The notes beneath the pieces were generated by a model. It searched no databases. It had not been told where the DNA came from and was given only the letters and a program-made list of their open reading frames with translations. A DNA stretch of 36,633 nt from Clostridiales bacterium. Its GTDB lineage: Bacteria; Bacillota; Clostridia; Oscillospirales; Acutalibacteraceae. Shown one piece after another: positions 26,186-33,374 of this stretch; the stretch's first letter is position 1; each line of letters opens with the position of its first letter. Where the stretch lies: the NCBI GenBank assembly GCA_012523185.1, contig JAAYIY010000059.1, forward strand, positions 1 to 36,633, given 5' to 3'. A program made the position numbers and the translations under genes.

Positions 26186-26226
26186 GCCCCGCGCCGTTTG
26201 AGACAGTCAAGCGGCGCGGGGCTTTT
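26186..26226 (+). terminator. Terminator of the GH38-DUF4838 operon
   Basis: GCCCCGCGCCG (26186-26196) pairs with CGGCGCGGGGC (26212-26222), followed by TTTTGC. It isolates the phage head cluster from the glycosidase operon. Confidence 0.88.
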
Positions 26227-26256: not shown

Positions 26257-26289
26257 GGTGTAAACAAAGTGTGAATAAAGTGTAAATAA
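26257..26289 (+). repeat. Three contiguous 11-bp direct repeats upstream of the terminase genes
   Basis: GGTGTAAACAA, AGTGTGAATAA and AGTGTAAATAA follow each other without a gap. One helical turn per unit is typical of a protein-binding array. They lie about 115 bases upstream of the first head gene. Confidence 0.8.
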
Positions 26290-26300
26290 GCTTATGTTTT

Positions 26301-26335
26301 CCCCTTTTGTTGCCCTGTTTGAGGCAACAAAGGGG
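26301..26335 (+). promoter_or_regulatory. Long hairpin in the leader of the head-gene cluster
   Basis: CCCCTTTTGTTGCC pairs with GGCAACAAAGGGG (one bulged T) around a short loop, followed by ATTATTTTG. It may be a weak terminator/attenuator for head-gene transcription or an operator. Confidence 0.6.
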
Positions 26336-26403
26336 ATTATTTTGTCTATTAGTGAAGGGGTTTTTAAAAACGCCGGAATATAACAGAAAGGAAATCTGAA
26401 AAA

Positions 26404-26880
26404 ATGAAAATACTGACCGCAAAGGAAAAGCTTTTCTGCGTCTTTTATGCTGAAAACAGAAACGCGAGAGAAGCGGCGGCAAAGGCGGGGTTCGCCATGC
26501 CGCAGAGGGCGGCAATACGACTCCTTGAAAAGGAATCAGTCAAGTCGGAGATTGAAGATATTTCATCGGAGCGGGCGGCCGGCCTGGACGAGGTTTGCGC
26601 AGGTTATCGCAGATTGGCCTTCGGTTCATACGCCGACGTGCTAAGGCTCCTTTTCACGGATGGAAAATCTGTCGCCGACGAGCTTGAGCAGCTTGATGTT
26701 TTCAACGTTTCGGAGATAAAGAAGAAGGACAGCTCAATTGAGATTAAGTTCTTCGACAGGCTGAAAGCGCTTGAGCATCTTGAGGCTTTGGGCGGGAAAA
26801 CAGCGGCGGCGGACAGTGCGCTGCCATTTTATGAGGCGTTGGAAAAGAGCGCCGAAAAGAAAGAAAACAGCCTCCGGTAA
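26404..26880 (+). CDS. terS: Phage terminase small subunit
   Basis: Protein of 158 residues of the Terminase_2 type. The N-terminal helix-turn-helix (LTAKEKLFCVFYAENRNAREAAAKAGF...AAIRLLEKESVKSEI, about 4-50) recognises the phage packaging site. The central helical region (RRLAFGSYADVLRLL...FDRLKALEHLEALGG) forms the oligomer ring, and the acidic tail contacts the large subunit. ATG 26404 follows AGAAAGGA. It heads the head-gene operon, 33 bases before the large subunit. The length is normal and no defect is visible. Confidence 0.88.
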   Translation: MKILTAKEKLFCVFYAENRNAREAAAKAGFAMPQRAAIRLLEKESVKSEIEDISSERAAGLDEVCAGYRRLAFGSYADVLRLLFTDGKSVADELEQLDVFNVSEIKKKDSSIEIKFFDRLKALEHLEALGGKTAAADSALPFYEALEKSAEKKENSLR

Positions 26881-26913
26881 AGCGCGGTGCTATTTTGAGA
26901 GGAGAGATTCCGG

Positions 26914-28173
26914 ATAAAACTAAGTGATTTCAAATCCTTTTCAGATAAGCAGCTGGCAGTCCTCAATTGGTGGTGCAAAACAAGTCCGCATTGCGGCCGC
27001 GACGCCGTCATATGCGACGGAGCCGTCCGCTCCGGAAAAACTGTCTGCATGTCGATTTCTTTCGTCGCGTGGAGTCTTTACGAGTTTCGCGACACATCGT
27101 TTGCACTTTGCGGCAAGACAATAACCTCCTTACGCAGAAACATTGTGACGCCCGTTCTTCCGCTCCTGAGGGAAATGGGCTTTGTCTGCGAGGAAAAGCT
27201 GTCAAGAAACTATATTGACATCAGCCGTGACGGCGCGTCGAATCGTTTTTACCTTTTTGGAGGCAAGGACGAAAGCTCGGCGTCGCTTATACAGGGTATG
27301 ACGCTCGGCGGAGTGCTGCTTGACGAGGTCGCGCTGATGCCGCGCTCGTTTGTCGAGCAGGCGCTGGCAAGATGTTCAGTCGAAAAGTCACGCCTGTGGT
27401 TTAATTGCAACCCGGAAAATCCGCTGCACTGGTTTCATGAGGAATGGGTAAAGAAGGCGGAGGAAAAAAACTGCCTTTACCTTCACTTCAGAATGGAGGA
27501 CAACCCGTCCCTGCGCCCCGCTATTATAAGAAGGTACAAAAGCCTTTACAGCGGAGCTTTTTATGAGCGCTTTGTTGAGGGGAAATGGGTGGCGGCATAC
27601 GGCATCGTATACCCCATGTTCAAAGCGGAAAGCCATGTGGCGGAGCCGCCGGGAACGCCGCGCGAATATTATATATCCTGTGATTACGGGACGGTCAATC
27701 CCTCTTCGTTCGGCTTGTGGGGAAGGGTCGGTGAGCGCTGGTACCGCCTGAACGAATATTACTTTGATTCACGGCGGGAGGGTGAGCAGCGGACAGACGA
27801 GGAGCATTACTCCGCGCTTGAGGAAATGGCGCGCGGGCTGCACATTGAGGCGGTCGTGGCGGACCCTTCCGCCGCAAGCTTTCTTGAGTGTATCAGGCGT
27901 CACGGCAAGTTTAAAGCCGTGCCGGCAAAAAATGACGTCGCGGACGGGATACGCAAAGTCGCCTCGGCGCTGAAAGAACGCAGGATTATGATTTGCCCCG
28001 CGTGCAGGGACACAATCCGCGAATTCGGACTGTACCGCTGGGACGACAGCGCAGTGAGGGATACGCCGCGCAAAGAAAACGACCACGCAATGGACGACAT
28101 ACGTTATTTTGTCGAAACCATCTTGTCGCGCGGCGGCGGCGAATTCTTCTCCATTGCGGTGGAAAGACAGTGA
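26914..28173 (+). CDS. terL: Phage terminase large subunit (ATA start codon)
   Basis: DNA-packaging motor ATPase and nuclease, 419 residues if read from ATA 26914. Walker A is GAVRSGKT (36-43) and Walker B LLDE (D137, E138). The nuclease acidic residues are D257 in SCDYGT, D317 in VVADPS, and D394/D395 in HAMDD. The first ATG in frame (27049) lies just after Walker A and would give an inactive 374-residue protein. The frame is open back to 26899, with no ATG, GTG or TTG before it. The well-placed GAGAGGAGAG (26897-26906) sits seven bases before ATA, and translation from there gives IKLSDFKSFSDKQLAVLNWW, matching the usual MKLSD...-type N-terminus of this family. So either ATA initiates or ATG has mutated to ATA. 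Confidence 0.85.
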   Translation: MKLSDFKSFSDKQLAVLNWWCKTSPHCGRDAVICDGAVRSGKTVCMSISFVAWSLYEFRDTSFALCGKTITSLRRNIVTPVLPLLREMGFVCEEKLSRNYIDISRDGASNRFYLFGGKDESSASLIQGMTLGGVLLDEVALMPRSFVEQALARCSVEKSRLWFNCNPENPLHWFHEEWVKKAEEKNCLYLHFRMEDNPSLRPAIIRRYKSLYSGAFYERFVEGKWVAAYGIVYPMFKAESHVAEPPGTPREYYISCDYGTVNPSSFGLWGRVGERWYRLNEYYFDSRREGEQRTDEEHYSALEEMARGLHIEAVVADPSAASFLECIRRHGKFKAVPAKNDVADGIRKVASALKERRIMICPACRDTIREFGLYRWDDSAVRDTPRKENDHAMDDIRYFVETILSRGGGEFFSIAVERQ

Positions 28174-28189
28174 AAGGATGATTTGTAAA

Positions 28190-29344
28190 ATGCCGTTCAA
28201 AAGAAAAAGATCTTACGAGGCCGCCGTGCAGACGGCGAGCGGAAGGAGCGCGTCTCATCCGTTTTCACTCCTTGACGGATATGTGCCCCTTGGAACGGCG
28301 CAGACGAGATTGTACGCGGAGCTTCGGGAAGCCATACCCATTATCGACGCGGCTGTCACAAAGCTTGTGCTGCTGACAGGCGGGTTTGAGGTGCGGTGTG
28401 CCGATTCAGCCGCTGACAAGGAGTTGAGACGCTTTGTGAACAGTGTGCCTGTCGGCGGAAACCGTAACGGAATATGGGCGTTTGTGTCGTCGTATTTTGA
28501 ACAGCTTCTGACATACGGGACGTCTGTCGGGGAGATAATCGTGTCGTCGGGAGATGTGCGCGGACTGTACAACGCGCCGCTTGAAAATATCGAGCTTCGG
28601 CGCGCGGCAGACGGGTTCGGTGTCGAGGTTTGCGCGCGCGGCGTTGCGGCTCCCGTTCCCGTCAAATACCCGGAGCTTATTCTTCTGTCCGCGCTTAATC
28701 CCGAACCCGGCGAGATGGCCGGCTGCTCACTCTTAAAAGGTCTGCCGTTTATCAGCGCGGTGCTTTTAAAAATTTATAACACGATAGGGCTGAACTGGGA
28801 GCGCGTCGGCAACGTCAGATTTGCCGTGACTTATAAGCCGCAAAACGACGCGTTTGACAAGGCGTTCGCCAAAGAGCGCGCGATACAGGTGGCGAAGGAG
28901 TGGGGCGACGCAATGCAGCCGGGCGGGAGAGTCAAGGACTTTGTAACTGTCGGCGATGTGAGCATAAAAGTCATAGGCGCTGACAATCAGGTGCTTGACA
29001 GCGAAATACCTGTCCGCCAGATGCTTGAGCAGATTGTGGCAAAAACAGGCCTGCCCCCGTTTATGCTCGGACTGTCATGGTCGTCAACCGAAAGGATGTC
29101 GTCACAGCAGGCGGACGCGCTGACCAGCGAGCTTGAGGGATACCGCAGGATAATAACGCCTGTAATCGACAAGATTTGCCGCACATTTTTGCGGCTTAGA
29201 GGTTTCTCCTGCGAGCCGGAAATATATTGGGACGACATTACGCTTCAGGACGAAGTGGAATTGAGCCGCGCGCGGCTTTACAACGCCCAGTCGGAGCTGA
29301 TTGAAAACAAGAAAGAGGCGAATGTGTCGCCGCTTCCGAAATAA
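28190..29344 (+). CDS. Phage portal protein
   Basis: Portal of 384 residues, which forms the dodecameric DNA channel at one capsid vertex and docks the terminase. Recognisable features are the N-terminal wing (LREAIPIIDAAVTKLVLLTGGFEV), FEQLLTYGTSVGEIIV, the stem/clip region, and the late conserved block VRQMLEQIVAKTGLPPFMLGLSWSSTERMSSQQADALTSEL. It is compact compared with many portals of 400-500 residues but appears complete. I start at ATG 28190, nine bases behind AAAGGATG, rather than at 28178 or in the terL overlap. The stop of terL is 17 bases upstream. Confidence 0.88.
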   Translation: MPFKRKRSYEAAVQTASGRSASHPFSLLDGYVPLGTAQTRLYAELREAIPIIDAAVTKLVLLTGGFEVRCADSAADKELRRFVNSVPVGGNRNGIWAFVSSYFEQLLTYGTSVGEIIVSSGDVRGLYNAPLENIELRRAADGFGVEVCARGVAAPVPVKYPELILLSALNPEPGEMAGCSLLKGLPFISAVLLKIYNTIGLNWERVGNVRFAVTYKPQNDAFDKAFAKERAIQVAKEWGDAMQPGGRVKDFVTVGDVSIKVIGADNQVLDSEIPVRQMLEQIVAKTGLPPFMLGLSWSSTERMSSQQADALTSELEGYRRIITPVIDKICRTFLRLRGFSCEPEIYWDDITLQDEVELSRARLYNAQSELIENKKEANVSPLPK

Positions 29345-29366
29345 GTTTATGAAGGGTGGTTATGGC

Positions 29367-30338
29367 TTGGATAAAAACTCAACGGCGGATATATCGCCGT
29401 GCGCGCCGTCGGCCGATGATATGGATACCATTAACCGTTTCACGAAAAAGACGCTTACACAGCAAGAGGTATACACCTTCGGAGTTGTGCTTTGCGACAA
29501 TGAAATTGACCGTGACTATGAGCGCTTTGACACAGAGGCACTCGGGGCGCTCGCGAAAATGTTTGTGGGCAAGACGGGAATCTGTGACCACGACATGAGA
29601 AGCGCCAATCAGGTGTCGCGGCTTTACAAAGCGGAGCTTGTCGTGGACAACGCGCGCCGCAATTCTTTGGGCGAGCCTTACGCGTATATTAAGGCTATGG
29701 CTTACATGCCGAGAAACGAAAGGAATTCGGCGCTTATAGCGGATATCGACGCGGGCATAAAAAAGGAAGCAAGCGTCGGATGCTCTGTACGAAATGTCGT
29801 CTGCTCCGAGTGCGGGGCGGATTTGCGCCGCGGAATGTGCGAGCATATAAAAGGCAAGCATTACGGCGGCAGGCTTTGCCACGCTGTTTTAAAAGACCCG
29901 GCGGATGCCTATGAATGGTCATTTGTCGCCGTACCGGCACAGTCGGCGGCGGGTGTGACTAAATCGTTCACAAATAAGGGGAGACAAGAATTGAACAACA
30001 TTTTGAAAGCAATCAAGACTGAAACGGATGCTATAACGCTTTCGGCGGACGAGCTGAAGAACCTGCGCGCGGAAATTGAGACACTTGAAAAAAGCGCGGC
30101 GGAGGGGCGTCTGTACAGGGAGCGGCTGCTTTCGGACGCCGTGCGCCTCGGAATGCTTGCCATGCCGCAAATCAGCGGTGAAAGCCTTAAATCTATTTGC
30201 GGCAAGCTCTCCGCAAACGAGCTTTGCGAGCTGAAATCTGTCTTTTCTCAAAACGCCGAAAAGCGAATGCCTGTTTCGCCGCAGCTTGCGGGCGAAAAAA
30301 AGGACTGCGAAGCACAAAACAATGAATTCAAAATATAA
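29367..30338 (+). CDS. Prohead protease-like protein with zinc motif and scaffold-like tail
   Basis: Probable capsid maturation protease fused to a scaffold, 323 residues. A TTG start at 29367 (MDKNSTAD) follows AAGGGTGG at the right distance; the in-frame ATG at 29349 has no site. The first 220 residues follow the His/Ser prohead protease pattern: H75 in GICDHDMRS, then S136 in KKEASVGCSV, and the closing strand YEWSFVAVPAQSAAGV. Between these sits a Cys3-His cluster, C146, C149, C158 and H160 (CSECG...MCEH), likely a zinc site not found in HK97 protease itself. Residues about 230-323 are helical and charged (ADELKNLRAEIETLEKSAAEGR), like a delta/scaffold domain removed on maturation. It lies directly before the decoration and capsid genes. 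The protease call is by motif and position. Confidence 0.7.
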   Translation: MDKNSTADISPCAPSADDMDTINRFTKKTLTQQEVYTFGVVLCDNEIDRDYERFDTEALGALAKMFVGKTGICDHDMRSANQVSRLYKAELVVDNARRNSLGEPYAYIKAMAYMPRNERNSALIADIDAGIKKEASVGCSVRNVVCSECGADLRRGMCEHIKGKHYGGRLCHAVLKDPADAYEWSFVAVPAQSAAGVTKSFTNKGRQELNNILKAIKTETDAITLSADELKNLRAEIETLEKSAAEGRLYRERLLSDAVRLGMLAMPQISGESLKSICGKLSANELCELKSVFSQNAEKRMPVSPQLAGEKKDCEAQNNEFKI

Positions 30339-30356
30339 ATAACGGAGGAAAACAAG

Positions 30357-30704
30357 ATGTCAATTTCTTTTGATGGGTTTAAGGAAAAAACTCTGACATT
30401 TAAAGCCGCCGCGGGCTTTGATACCGCGGGCGTTCCCGTGATTGTGAGCGCCGGAAACACAGTAAATGAGTGTGGGATTGGCGACAGCTTTTGCGGGATA
30501 TCAAAAAGCTTCAGAAACGGCCTTGCCGCCGTTCAGCTTTCCGGAATCGTGACAATAGGATACAGCGGAACAGCGCCGTCGGCGGGCTACAACAATCTTG
30601 CGTGCAACGGCGCGGGTAAAGTTTCAGTGGCGTCCGAGGGCGGCAGGGAATATCTTATCGTCGACGTGAACACAACAAAATCTACAGTCACATTTTTACT
30701 TTGA
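30357..30704 (+). CDS. Capsid decoration-like protein
   Basis: Beta-rich protein of 115 residues between protease and major capsid genes, where head decoration/stabilisation proteins (for example the DUF2190 or HDPD types) are encoded. The sequence alternates short strands and glycines (LTFKAAAGFDTAGVPVIVSAGN...SGIVTIGYSGTAPSAGYNNLACNGAGKVSV) and has no helix. ATG 30357 follows GGAGG. The function is inferred from position, size and the pattern of a Val/Gly-rich compact barrel. Confidence 0.6.
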   Translation: MSISFDGFKEKTLTFKAAAGFDTAGVPVIVSAGNTVNECGIGDSFCGISKSFRNGLAAVQLSGIVTIGYSGTAPSAGYNNLACNGAGKVSVASEGGREYLIVDVNTTKSTVTFLL

Positions 30705-30726
30705 GATAAAAAAAGGGGGAAAAACA

Positions 30727-31737
30727 ATGTCATATGATTCAATAAAGCTTGAAAAAGGACTTTACGGAACAGGGAAATCTTTCACGGCATCGCTTGAGGA
30801 GCTTGACCCCACAGAAAACTACAAGGGCTCGCCGCTTGAGGGGCTTGACGCGTATCAGCGTCAGCTTAAGCGCTTTGACATTCGCGTAAGCGGGGCGGGC
30901 AGCAGCCCTGTCGAAAAGTTTTTCGCGACGACTGATTCGGCGGCTCTTTTTCCGGAGTATGTTTCAAGGGCTGTCCGACAGGGATTGGAGGAGGCCGACC
31001 TGCTTCCGCGCATAGTTGCGACGACGACCATGATTGACGGCCTTGATTACCGCTCCATCGCGTCTGTTCCGTCAGGCGACGACAAGGAGCTGAAGGACGT
31101 GGCAGAGGGCGCGTTCATTCCGGAAACAAAAGTCACGACGCAGGAAAACCTTATAAAGCTTCACAAGCGCGGACGTATGCTTGTGGCGTCATACGAGGCT
31201 GTGCGTTTCCAAAAGCTTGATCTTTTCACCATAACCTTAAAGCAGATAGGAGCATATATCGCCAGAACACAGTTCGCGGACGCTGTTGGCGTGCTGATAA
31301 ACGGCGACGGGAACGGCAACGCCGCGGCGACGAGCGGTATTGAGGATTCCTCGACGCACGTCATAACATACGGCGACCTTGTGACCTTCTGGAATCTTTT
31401 TTCTCCGTATGAGCTGAACACTCTTATAACAACTCCCGCAATCATGGCGAAGCTTCTCAACTTAAATGAGTTTAAAGACGCTTCCGCCGGATTCAGCTTC
31501 CAGTCAAGCGGAAAGATGATTACGCCTATCGGCGCCGAGCTGATAAAGTCGTCGGCTGTTTCATCAGGCAAAATAGTCGGGCTTGACAGGGGCTGCTCGC
31601 TTGAAATGGTGAAGGCGGGCGACGTCATGACCGAGTACGACAAGCTGATTGACCGCCAGCTTGAAAGGGCGGCGATAACATCCATAGCGGGATTCGCTAA
31701 AATTTTCGAGGGCGCGTCAAGAGTTCTGAACGTTTAA
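30727..31737 (+). CDS. Phage major capsid protein (HK97-like fold)
   Basis: Major head subunit of 336 residues. A polar N-terminal arm (1-60) is followed by the HK97-type body: FATTDSAALFPEYVSRAVRQGLEEADLLPRIVATTTMIDGLDYRSI (N-arm to E-loop), AFIPETKVTTQENLIKLHKRGRMLVASYEAVRFQKLDLF (spine helix region), ATSGI, and the A-domain TLITTPAIMAKLL...ITPIGAELI. There is no separate delta domain, consistent with the scaffold being on the upstream protein. ATG 30727 follows GGGGGA. It starts 22 bases after the decoration gene. Confidence 0.85.
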   Translation: MSYDSIKLEKGLYGTGKSFTASLEELDPTENYKGSPLEGLDAYQRQLKRFDIRVSGAGSSPVEKFFATTDSAALFPEYVSRAVRQGLEEADLLPRIVATTTMIDGLDYRSIASVPSGDDKELKDVAEGAFIPETKVTTQENLIKLHKRGRMLVASYEAVRFQKLDLFTITLKQIGAYIARTQFADAVGVLINGDGNGNAAATSGIEDSSTHVITYGDLVTFWNLFSPYELNTLITTPAIMAKLLNLNEFKDASAGFSFQSSGKMITPIGAELIKSSAVSSGKIVGLDRGCSLEMVKAGDVMTEYDKLIDRQLERAAITSIAGFAKIFEGASRVLNV

Positions 31738-31751
31738 TCGGAGGTGCTGTT

Positions 31752-32111
31752 ATGAACCAATGGTCTGTTCTGAACAGCCTGCGGCGGATAACGGTTCTTG
31801 ACGGAGAAGGGGCGGCAGAAGCGCTGCCCCTTTGTCTCGCAAGCATCGAGGAAATCCGCTTCATGCTGAAGGAAGGGGCGGATGAAGAGGATCCGCGCGC
31901 AGTCAACGCGGCGGCAGGTCTTGCGTATTACAAGCTGACAATGCGAAATATATCTGACGATGACAGCATCACCTCGTTCAAGGCGGGCGATGTCATCATC
32001 AGCAAAAGCGCGTCGCTTGTCATGGACAAGGCCGCCAAAATCCGCGACGATGCCTTTGTCGCGGCGCAGCCCCTTATGCGTGACGATTCTTTTATCTTTA
32101 CACAGGCATAG
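31752..32111 (+). CDS. Phage head-tail connector-like protein
   Basis: Protein of 119 residues in the first position after the capsid gene, where head completion/adaptor proteins (gp6/gp15-like) lie. It is mainly helical: EIRFMLKEGADEEDPRAVNAAAGLAYYKLTMRN, then a short linker and SASLVMDKAAKIRDDAFVAAQPLM, matching the helical-bundle type of adaptor. ATG follows GGAGGTG. Function is from position, size and helical content. Confidence 0.6.
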   Translation: MNQWSVLNSLRRITVLDGEGAAEALPLCLASIEEIRFMLKEGADEEDPRAVNAAAGLAYYKLTMRNISDDDSITSFKAGDVIISKSASLVMDKAAKIRDDAFVAAQPLMRDDSFIFTQA

Positions 32112-32123
32112 TGAGGTGATTTC

Positions 32124-32459
32124 TTGAAGGTCAATCAATTTATGAACCGATTCGGGCGGAGTGTCTGCATAAAGGACGACGACGGATGGAATTCCGAGAC
32201 GTTTCACGCGTTTATACAGCCGCTGCGCTATAAAAACAAGATGTATCTTTACGGTGTCAACACAACAATAGGCTTCAACAGCCAGGGGCATTATTTGTAC
32301 ATAGGCCCGCCGGAACACGACTTGACGCTGCATGAAGACTCATATTTCATTGAGTCAAACGGCGAAAAATACAAAGTGGACCGCGCGGAAAGGGTTTATG
32401 CCGGGGACAAGATTTTTTATGTCTGGGCAATAATAAGAACAATTATCGACACCGGATAA
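32124..32459 (+). CDS. Head-closure-like phage protein
   Basis: Protein of 111 residues starting with TTG 32124 behind GAGGTGA. It is beta-rich (HAFIQPLRYKNKMYLYGVNTTIGFNSQGHYLYIGPP...ESNGEKYKVDRAERVYAGDKIFYVWAII), as expected of stopper/head-closure proteins that follow the adaptor. It is separated by 12 bases from the preceding gene and 17 from the next. Function is by position and fold pattern. Confidence 0.55.
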   Translation: MKVNQFMNRFGRSVCIKDDDGWNSETFHAFIQPLRYKNKMYLYGVNTTIGFNSQGHYLYIGPPEHDLTLHEDSYFIESNGEKYKVDRAERVYAGDKIFYVWAIIRTIIDTG

Positions 32460-32476
32460 GCAAAGGAGTGATAAAC

Positions 32477-33322
32477 TTGAGCTCAATCAGCTCTCTGCCG
32501 GCAGATATTGTCGCGTGGCTTTCATCTCAGGAGGAATTGTCAAGCATACGCTTCATGACAGAGTTTCCGCCTGAAAAAAAGGCGATTCCGCTGAAAAGCG
32601 CCATTGTCGCCGTAGGGATTGAGGAGGTTTCAATCGAGGACAGCTTTTCGGACGACGGCAACGGGGTCCTTGTTGAAAACGAATACTGCCGCCTCGCGGA
32701 AATGAAAATCAAGCTTGCAATACACATTCCTTTTTCGGAGGGCGGAGCAAAATGTCATGATGTTTTTTCAAATGTTATTGACTGTCTGACATTTGCGTCA
32801 GACCTTGAGATTGTCGAATCAGGATGCTCCAACATTATGGCCGACAGGGACACCGACGCTCTTGTGCTGAACGCCTGGATGCTTGTATCCTCCGACTTCT
32901 GCCCCGCTGTGAGCAGCAGCATGAACTTTCAATCTTTTATGAACAAGGAGCTGCTTTGCGGCAGCCACATCACAGACAACAACATACATGTGACGCAGGA
33001 TGAAAAAGCGGTGTGGAACGAACCGCTGTTAGTCGGAAGCTATTTGGGGACGGGCACGGCGACTCAAAGCATTAGCCTGCCTTTTGAACCGAAGGCCGTT
33101 ATTGTTTTCGCCCAGGAAACAGCTTTTGTCACGCCGACATATCAAGGCTCCTCATTATATTACACTTATGCCGGAGTGGCCGGCAACCGGTATGGCTCTC
33201 TGGGTATTGAGTTGACAAGCAACGGCTTTAAGCTTTTTCAGGGTACTTCATATCAGCTTGACAACGTTATTCCGAATTTGAACAGGAGCGGGTTTCACTA
33301 CGGCTTTATAGCGTTTAGATAA
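32477..33322 (+). CDS. Tail-completion-like protein fused to tail-fibre-like C-terminus
   Basis: Protein of 281 residues with two unlike halves. I use TTG 32477, eight bases behind AAAGGAG; GTG 32468 is also in frame. Residues 1 to about 160 look like a tail-terminator/neck protein (ADIVAWLSSQEELSSIRF...VLVENEYCRLAEMKIKLAIHIPFSEGGAKCHDVFSNVIDCL). From 164 the motif HITDNNIHVTQDEKAVWN appears, typical of phage tail-fibre and collar modules. A beta-rich end (GTGTATQSISLPFEPKAVIVFAQ...HYGFIAFR) resembles fibre tips or receptor-binding domains. No tail gene follows. Either a deletion has joined a neck gene to a fibre gene, or the composite is a natural head-vertex adhesin. It is the last gene before the terminator. 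Confidence 0.65.
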   Translation: MSSISSLPADIVAWLSSQEELSSIRFMTEFPPEKKAIPLKSAIVAVGIEEVSIEDSFSDDGNGVLVENEYCRLAEMKIKLAIHIPFSEGGAKCHDVFSNVIDCLTFASDLEIVESGCSNIMADRDTDALVLNAWMLVSSDFCPAVSSSMNFQSFMNKELLCGSHITDNNIHVTQDEKAVWNEPLLVGSYLGTGTATQSISLPFEPKAVIVFAQETAFVTPTYQGSSLYYTYAGVAGNRYGSLGIELTSNGFKLFQGTSYQLDNVIPNLNRSGFHYGFIAFR

Positions 33323-33329
33323 TATTACG

Positions 33330-33374
33330 GCGGCGGCACTCAAAGGGATGATGTGCCGCCGCTGTTTTTCTTTT
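33330..33374 (+). terminator. Terminator of the head-gene cluster
   Basis: GCGGCGGCAC (33330-33339) pairs with GTGCCGCCGC (33353-33362), followed by TGTTTTTCTTTTTT. Strong and immediately after the last head gene. Confidence 0.93.

Follow-up and report, generated by a model that had tools for sequence, protein, structure and literature searches.

The window analysed here, a stretch of 36,633 nucleotides from a Clostridiales bacterium of the Acutalibacteraceae (contig JAAYIY010000059.1), carries a block of phage-derived head and packaging genes that is likely to be a domesticated, vertically inherited element resembling gene transfer agents (GTAs) and making a tail-less DNA-packaging particle. 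To date, GTAs have been described only rarely outside the Alphaproteobacteria.

Head and packaging operon of the window

Nine collinear ORFs make up the block (26404-33322), an operon for head formation and packaging that has a hairpin on either side. The features are as follows.

26186..26222, + strand: strong hairpin (16 pairs, 12 G-C) followed by a T-run, terminating the glycosidase operon that lies upstream
26302..26335, + strand: second hairpin, in the leader; the closest relative, L022, has a hairpin of different sequence in the same place
26404..26880, + strand: TerS, small terminase, N-terminal DNA-binding part present (Terminase_2 PF03592, 2e-15; phrog_51, 1e-13)
26914..28173, + strand: TerL, large terminase, Walker A GAVRSGKT (phrog_2, 8e-43; Terminase_6N, 9e-11)
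28190..29344, + strand: portal (phrog_30703, 1e-133); the ORF opens at 28109, likely start ATG at 28190
29349..30338, + strand: gene 4 (phrog_16951 of unknown function, 1e-107); start uncertain
30357..30704, + strand: head decoration-type protein (phrog_4588, 3e-26)
30727..31737, + strand: major capsid protein (phrog_3922, 6e-97; PF25209, 1e-16)
31752..32111, + strand: gene 7, head-tail adaptor-type, function by position; order conserved in relatives
32124..32459, + strand: gene 8, stopper or head-closure-type, function by position; order conserved in relatives
32468..33322, + strand: gene 9, terminator-fibre fusion (residues ~1-150 and ~165-284), from alignment, AlphaFold2 model and fold matches
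33330..33362, + strand: closing hairpin GCGGCGGCAC/GTGCCGCCGC with T-run, read by eye, the loop being too long for the hairpin scan

Gene 4 is a probable prohead protease with a C-terminal scaffold, judged by its position and by inspection of its sequence. Genes 7 to 9 gave no match in the family profile scans; their position and sequence are conserved across relatives. The initial annotation had described nine intact head genes in canonical order between two terminators. The collinear ORFs and the hairpins at 26186-26222 and 33330-33362 agree with this description, and the ninth gene was reassigned from a plain head gene to a terminator-fibre fusion. The placement among host sugar-metabolism genes was likewise confirmed, the flanks comprising GH38 mannosidase, DUF4838, Gfo/Idh/MocA and xylose-isomerase-like genes.

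Genes for integration, tails, lysis or regulation were not seen around the operon, as had been stated before, and ten further ORFs of the window were checked without a phage structural match in any of them. Flanking direct repeats amounted to short, chance-like matches, with nothing convincing and no att-like repeat. The organism's assembly, which is 95% complete and spans 2.15 Mb in 76 contigs, contains the operon's terminase once. Elsewhere in the window, positions 441-2537 encode a cellulosome-type surface protein with leucine-rich repeats, cohesin and a dockerin domain.

ATG, GTG and TTG are all absent ahead of the Walker A motif of TerL, and the apparent start is an ATA at 26914 behind AGGAGAG. 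Within the genus (window, L022, L023 and L142), TerL apparently starts with ATA, ATT or ATC after a strong ribosome site; most other genera use ATG, GTG or TTG. A gene broken for want of an ATG was considered and rejected, and TerL was read as intact because Walker A is in frame, the ribosome site is good and close relatives use ATT or ATC. Near-cognate starts of this kind are rare, and this one could limit how much terminase is made. When compared with the PDB, the TerL profile matched a solved large terminase (5oe8, at 3e-173; also 5oea), and the protein is 49.5% identical to TerL of the deep-sea thermophilic phage D6E. D6E is a free phage, and the family's portal and capsid have no comparably close annotated phage relative.

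In several lineages (G054, G152, G025, G071 and others), TerS was matched over only ~100 of 163 model positions, so part of TerS may be lost there, as reported for the TerS of FpGTA, the element of Faecalibacterium discussed below. The DNA-binding part is retained in the window, and packaging therefore need not be random.

Gene 9 and the probable reduction of the tail

On alignment and modelling, gene 9 is a tail-terminator domain joined to the C-terminal module of the lost tail fibre, a fusion conserved in frame. Its first ~160 residues aligned with tail-terminator genes that stand alone in relatives; the last ~120 aligned with the short fibre gene found at the end of the baseplate operon of L043, L045, L047 and L064. 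The AlphaFold2 model (mean pLDDT 78) consisted of a terminator fold, a weakly predicted linker (147-168) and a beta-rich module. Fold matches of the terminator domain were lambda gpU (Z 11.7), T5 p142 (Z 11.7), the pyocin R2 collar (Z 11.2) and the RcGTA terminator (6tba, Z 10.8). Modelled alone, the C-terminal module reached a pLDDT of 89; its comparison with the PDB returned weak rows (best Z 6.4), tailspikes, tail fibres and a pyocin fibre among them. The fusion is present over many genera.

In sister lineages the head part is unchanged and runs directly into a contractile tail, or into a sheathless tube and baseplate. The fullest tails (L044, L059, L091 and L092; genomes G363, G035 and G116) comprise sheath (phrog_279, 1e-20), tube, LysM protein, hub, gp25, baseplate J (phrog_6, 5e-74), tail protein I and mostly a fibre. 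Absence of the sheath with retention of tube and baseplate was found in G123, G107, G006, G020, G165 and more. Genomes G090 and G195 (L167 and L168) are intermediate, the head block being followed by tube, LysM protein and hub with the baseplate absent, and another group keeps the terminator alone, with no baseplate match. Sheath, tube, hub and baseplate are all missing in the window's clade, in which gene 9 is fused. A long tape-measure gene was seen in none of the tailed forms examined, nor were lysis or integration genes recognisable behind the fibre in the tailed versions looked at. Parsimony over different trees required 4-7 changes for the presence of the baseplate and 3-5 for the fusion, shuffled labels requiring at least 9. 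From phage biology we infer that the tailed form is ancestral; the change counts do not themselves fix the direction.

Block-type baseplate J was present in 0 of 17 fused genomes vs 64 of 95 others (Fisher 8e-8, a value that overstates the association because the sequences are related by descent). No fused-type genome had a hub or block-type baseplate anywhere in its assembly (18 genomes for the hub), the 2.15-Mb assembly of the window included; the positive controls for the hub search (G123, G090 and G195) were all matched. In two fused-type genomes, G003 and G128, a different contig carries a baseplate J that is unrelated. In six other genomes of the family (G034, G061, G091, G105, G131 and G019), the head block is on one contig and baseplate J on another, a pattern that suggests either split operons of the FpGTA I and FpGTA II kind or breaks between contigs.

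These observations bear on whether the same GTA-like element might obtain its tail, holin and endolysin in trans from a second, divergent operon, as with FpGTA II in Faecalibacterium. We consider this unlikely: the two FpGTA operons do lie ~125 kb apart (PMC12946183), the six genomes just mentioned have head and baseplate J on different contigs and lysis must come from some source, but the family-type baseplate J and hub are absent from the window's own and other fused-type genomes where the positive controls matched, and the fibre module is already joined to the neck protein. Elsewhere in the genome there could be a tail or lysis operon that has diverged beyond the reach of the profiles.

Distribution, inheritance and selection

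Genomes were sampled at three ranks and were mostly MAGs. In the family sample, the portal search was positive for 112 of 200 genomes and 79 of 135 genera, with exactly one copy each. The order sample yielded 70 positives out of 394 genomes, again with one copy each, in the families coded f1, f14, f26, f15, f2 and f7. The eight positives among the 391 genomes of the class sample all came from the window's own order, and the block had no match outside the order in that sample. Carriers include genomes of just 0.9-1.1 Mb. Among the named relatives of the capsid, MAGs predominate, from Oscillospiraceae, Ruminococcaceae, Ruminococcus, Lawsonibacter, Fimenecus and unclassified Clostridia.

The closest relative, L022, has a capsid 90% identical to that of the window, and the two genes upstream of its block equal the window's glycosidases in size. 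Deeper relatives have different flanks; sites are shared within groups, G025, G152 and G054, for example, having the block beside the same genes.

Three GenBank records from human faeces labelled 'Bacteriophage sp.' (L118, L119 and L120; MT835508, MT835769 and MT835952) have the block amid ordinary bacterial genes, in L118 close to an rnf-like operon and a ribosomal protein operon. Given these surroundings, the records are chromosomal pieces labelled as phage. An IMG/VR contig of 104 kb (L101) carries a capsid gene 48% identical to that of the window, among phage-like and NAD-synthesis-like genes. The family's portal or terminase was not found near this capsid gene, and capsid exchange between phage and element is possible.

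The block is passed on vertically with the host genome, and its tree follows that of the host. A tree of TerL, portal and capsid from 54 genomes had 31 of 51 splits in common with the rpoB tree, label shuffles giving at most 3, and head and rpoB distances were correlated with a Mantel r of 0.70 (permutation maximum 0.28). One strongly supported conflict was found, on the long branch of G056; the support values are those of FastTree, maximum-likelihood tree searches having been stopped by a time limit.

Single copies and congruence with the host tree also count against a capsid-forming satellite (cfPICI-like), with heads of its own and tails borrowed from a helper phage. Such satellites make their own capsids (PMC11389934), and the window resembles them in having its own capsid and a head-only gene content from which tail genes are absent. 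The block differs in lacking integrase, regulatory and replication genes beside it and in showing no sign of mobility, and it is not obvious that a terminator with a fibre module as its cap could take a tail. This origin is very improbable, and the satellite suggested in the initial annotation found no support: a mobile satellite was rejected on the absent integrase, the vertical tree and the lack of att-like repeats.

Every gene of the operon is under purifying selection. Between the window and L022 (Nei-Gojobori), dN/dS was 0.05-0.23 over all genes at a dS of about 0.7-1.4, with values of 0.067 for TerL, 0.095 for the portal and 0.054 for the capsid; in gene 9, the terminator domain gave 0.066 and the fibre module 0.131. 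In eleven other pairs, dN/dS was well below 1 where dS was unsaturated, the highest value being 0.42 (decoration gene, one pair). ORFs were intact in nearly all of 60 mapped genomes. To a decaying prophage remnant left after a deletion we give almost no weight: the ancestor did lose tail genes, but the low dN/dS in all genes, the intact ORFs and the conservation of the fusion over many genera oppose decay. A remnant of a recent deletion was rejected on dN/dS and the breadth of the fusion.

A large internal deletion and a module kept for a tail-less packaging particle had originally been offered as alternatives. The former does not hold as a local remnant and survives as a loss of tail genes in an ancestor; the latter is supported by its one copy per genome, its vertical descent, the purifying selection on it and its occurrence in many genera. 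The two are not exclusive, because the ancestral tail loss left a conserved in-frame fusion. Domestication had been expected to appear as the same block at the same site in several species with low dN/dS; the low ratios were found, and the shared site was found among close relatives only and not across all genera. Tail or lysis genes in the contig, an integrated full prophage at the site and an excess of stop codons in relatives had been named as contrary signs, and none of them was seen.

The proposed particle and its nearest known systems

The genes of the block share several features with GTAs: descent from tailed phages (terminase, portal and capsid), vertical transmission, a cluster devoid of genes for integration or replication, and purifying selection. 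From its gene content, the element of the window's clade probably assembles a particle that has no tail and packages bacterial DNA. Under host control, a subset of cells would express the operon, and TerS and TerL would load chromosome fragments into small heads, a cargo we infer because genes for replication or integration that could favour the element's own DNA are absent. The portal-adaptor-stopper channel would be closed by a fusion-protein ring whose outward fibre modules may take over the adsorption role of the tail, so that the particle would be tail-less or podovirus-like. For release and uptake it would rely on genes beyond the block. A precedent is a related bacterium that sheds tail-less DNA capsids of ~40 nm from an operon of this kind (PMC12946183). 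A wider proposal, towards which we lean slightly less than away from it, is that an order-wide GTA exists at every stage of tail loss, its most reduced form delivering or targeting chromosomal DNA via a terminator ring with an old fibre tip.

That the particle serves a purpose other than transfer, such as interfering with phage infection, or storing or disposing of DNA, is quite unlikely. Tail loss could mean loss of delivery, and PBSX-type particles inject no DNA (PMC12946183), but purifying selection acts on terminase, portal and fibre module alike, as suits a role in packaging and cell binding. The sister lineages have a contractile tail of the type found in PBSX-like defective prophages (sheath, tube, LysM/hub, gp25 and baseplate J), whereas the window's clade has lost all those parts and with them the killing tail.

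The nearest described system to the GTA-like element proposed here is FpGTA of Faecalibacterium, the likeness being one of description, with homology not established. GTA-like packaging was reported mainly in Ruminococcaceae and Oscillospiraceae, with an operon found only in Faecalibacterium; in F. prausnitzii, FpGTA I is a head operon and FpGTA II a remote operon for baseplate, fibre and lysis, and the particles are ~40 nm with no visible tails and ~9 kb of DNA (PMC12946183). Both systems belong to the same order and have a chromosomal operon of TerS, TerL, portal, scaffold (a probable one in the window), capsid and other phage proteins without replication genes (PMC12946183). They differ in that FpGTA I has 10 ORFs in 10.5 kb and is accompanied by a second operon, and in that the FpGTA TerS is without a clear DNA-binding domain. 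FpGTA was present in every Faecalibacterium strain examined (PMC12946183). The family's portal and TerL profiles had no match in four genomes of genus g235, which may be Faecalibacterium on the basis of one primer match (PMC4126176); the 16S probe Fprau645, applied as another marker of Faecalibacterium, matched none of the genomes and so was uninformative. RcGTA (Rhodogtaviriformidae, PMC9662315) is likewise a vertically inherited structural cluster derived from Caudoviricetes, with a terminator of similar fold; it belongs to another host phylum and retains a complete siphovirus-like tail, whereas in the present clade the tail is gone.

The capsid sequences of the family are filed as phages in virus databases despite their chromosomal location, and portal, capsid and TerL provide a marker set for the detection of carriers. 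The series from contractile to tube-only to tail-less forms, together with the fusion, allows the function of a phage-derived DNA particle without a tail to be tested. The family is a candidate source of the GTA-like packaging in gut genera other than Faecalibacterium.
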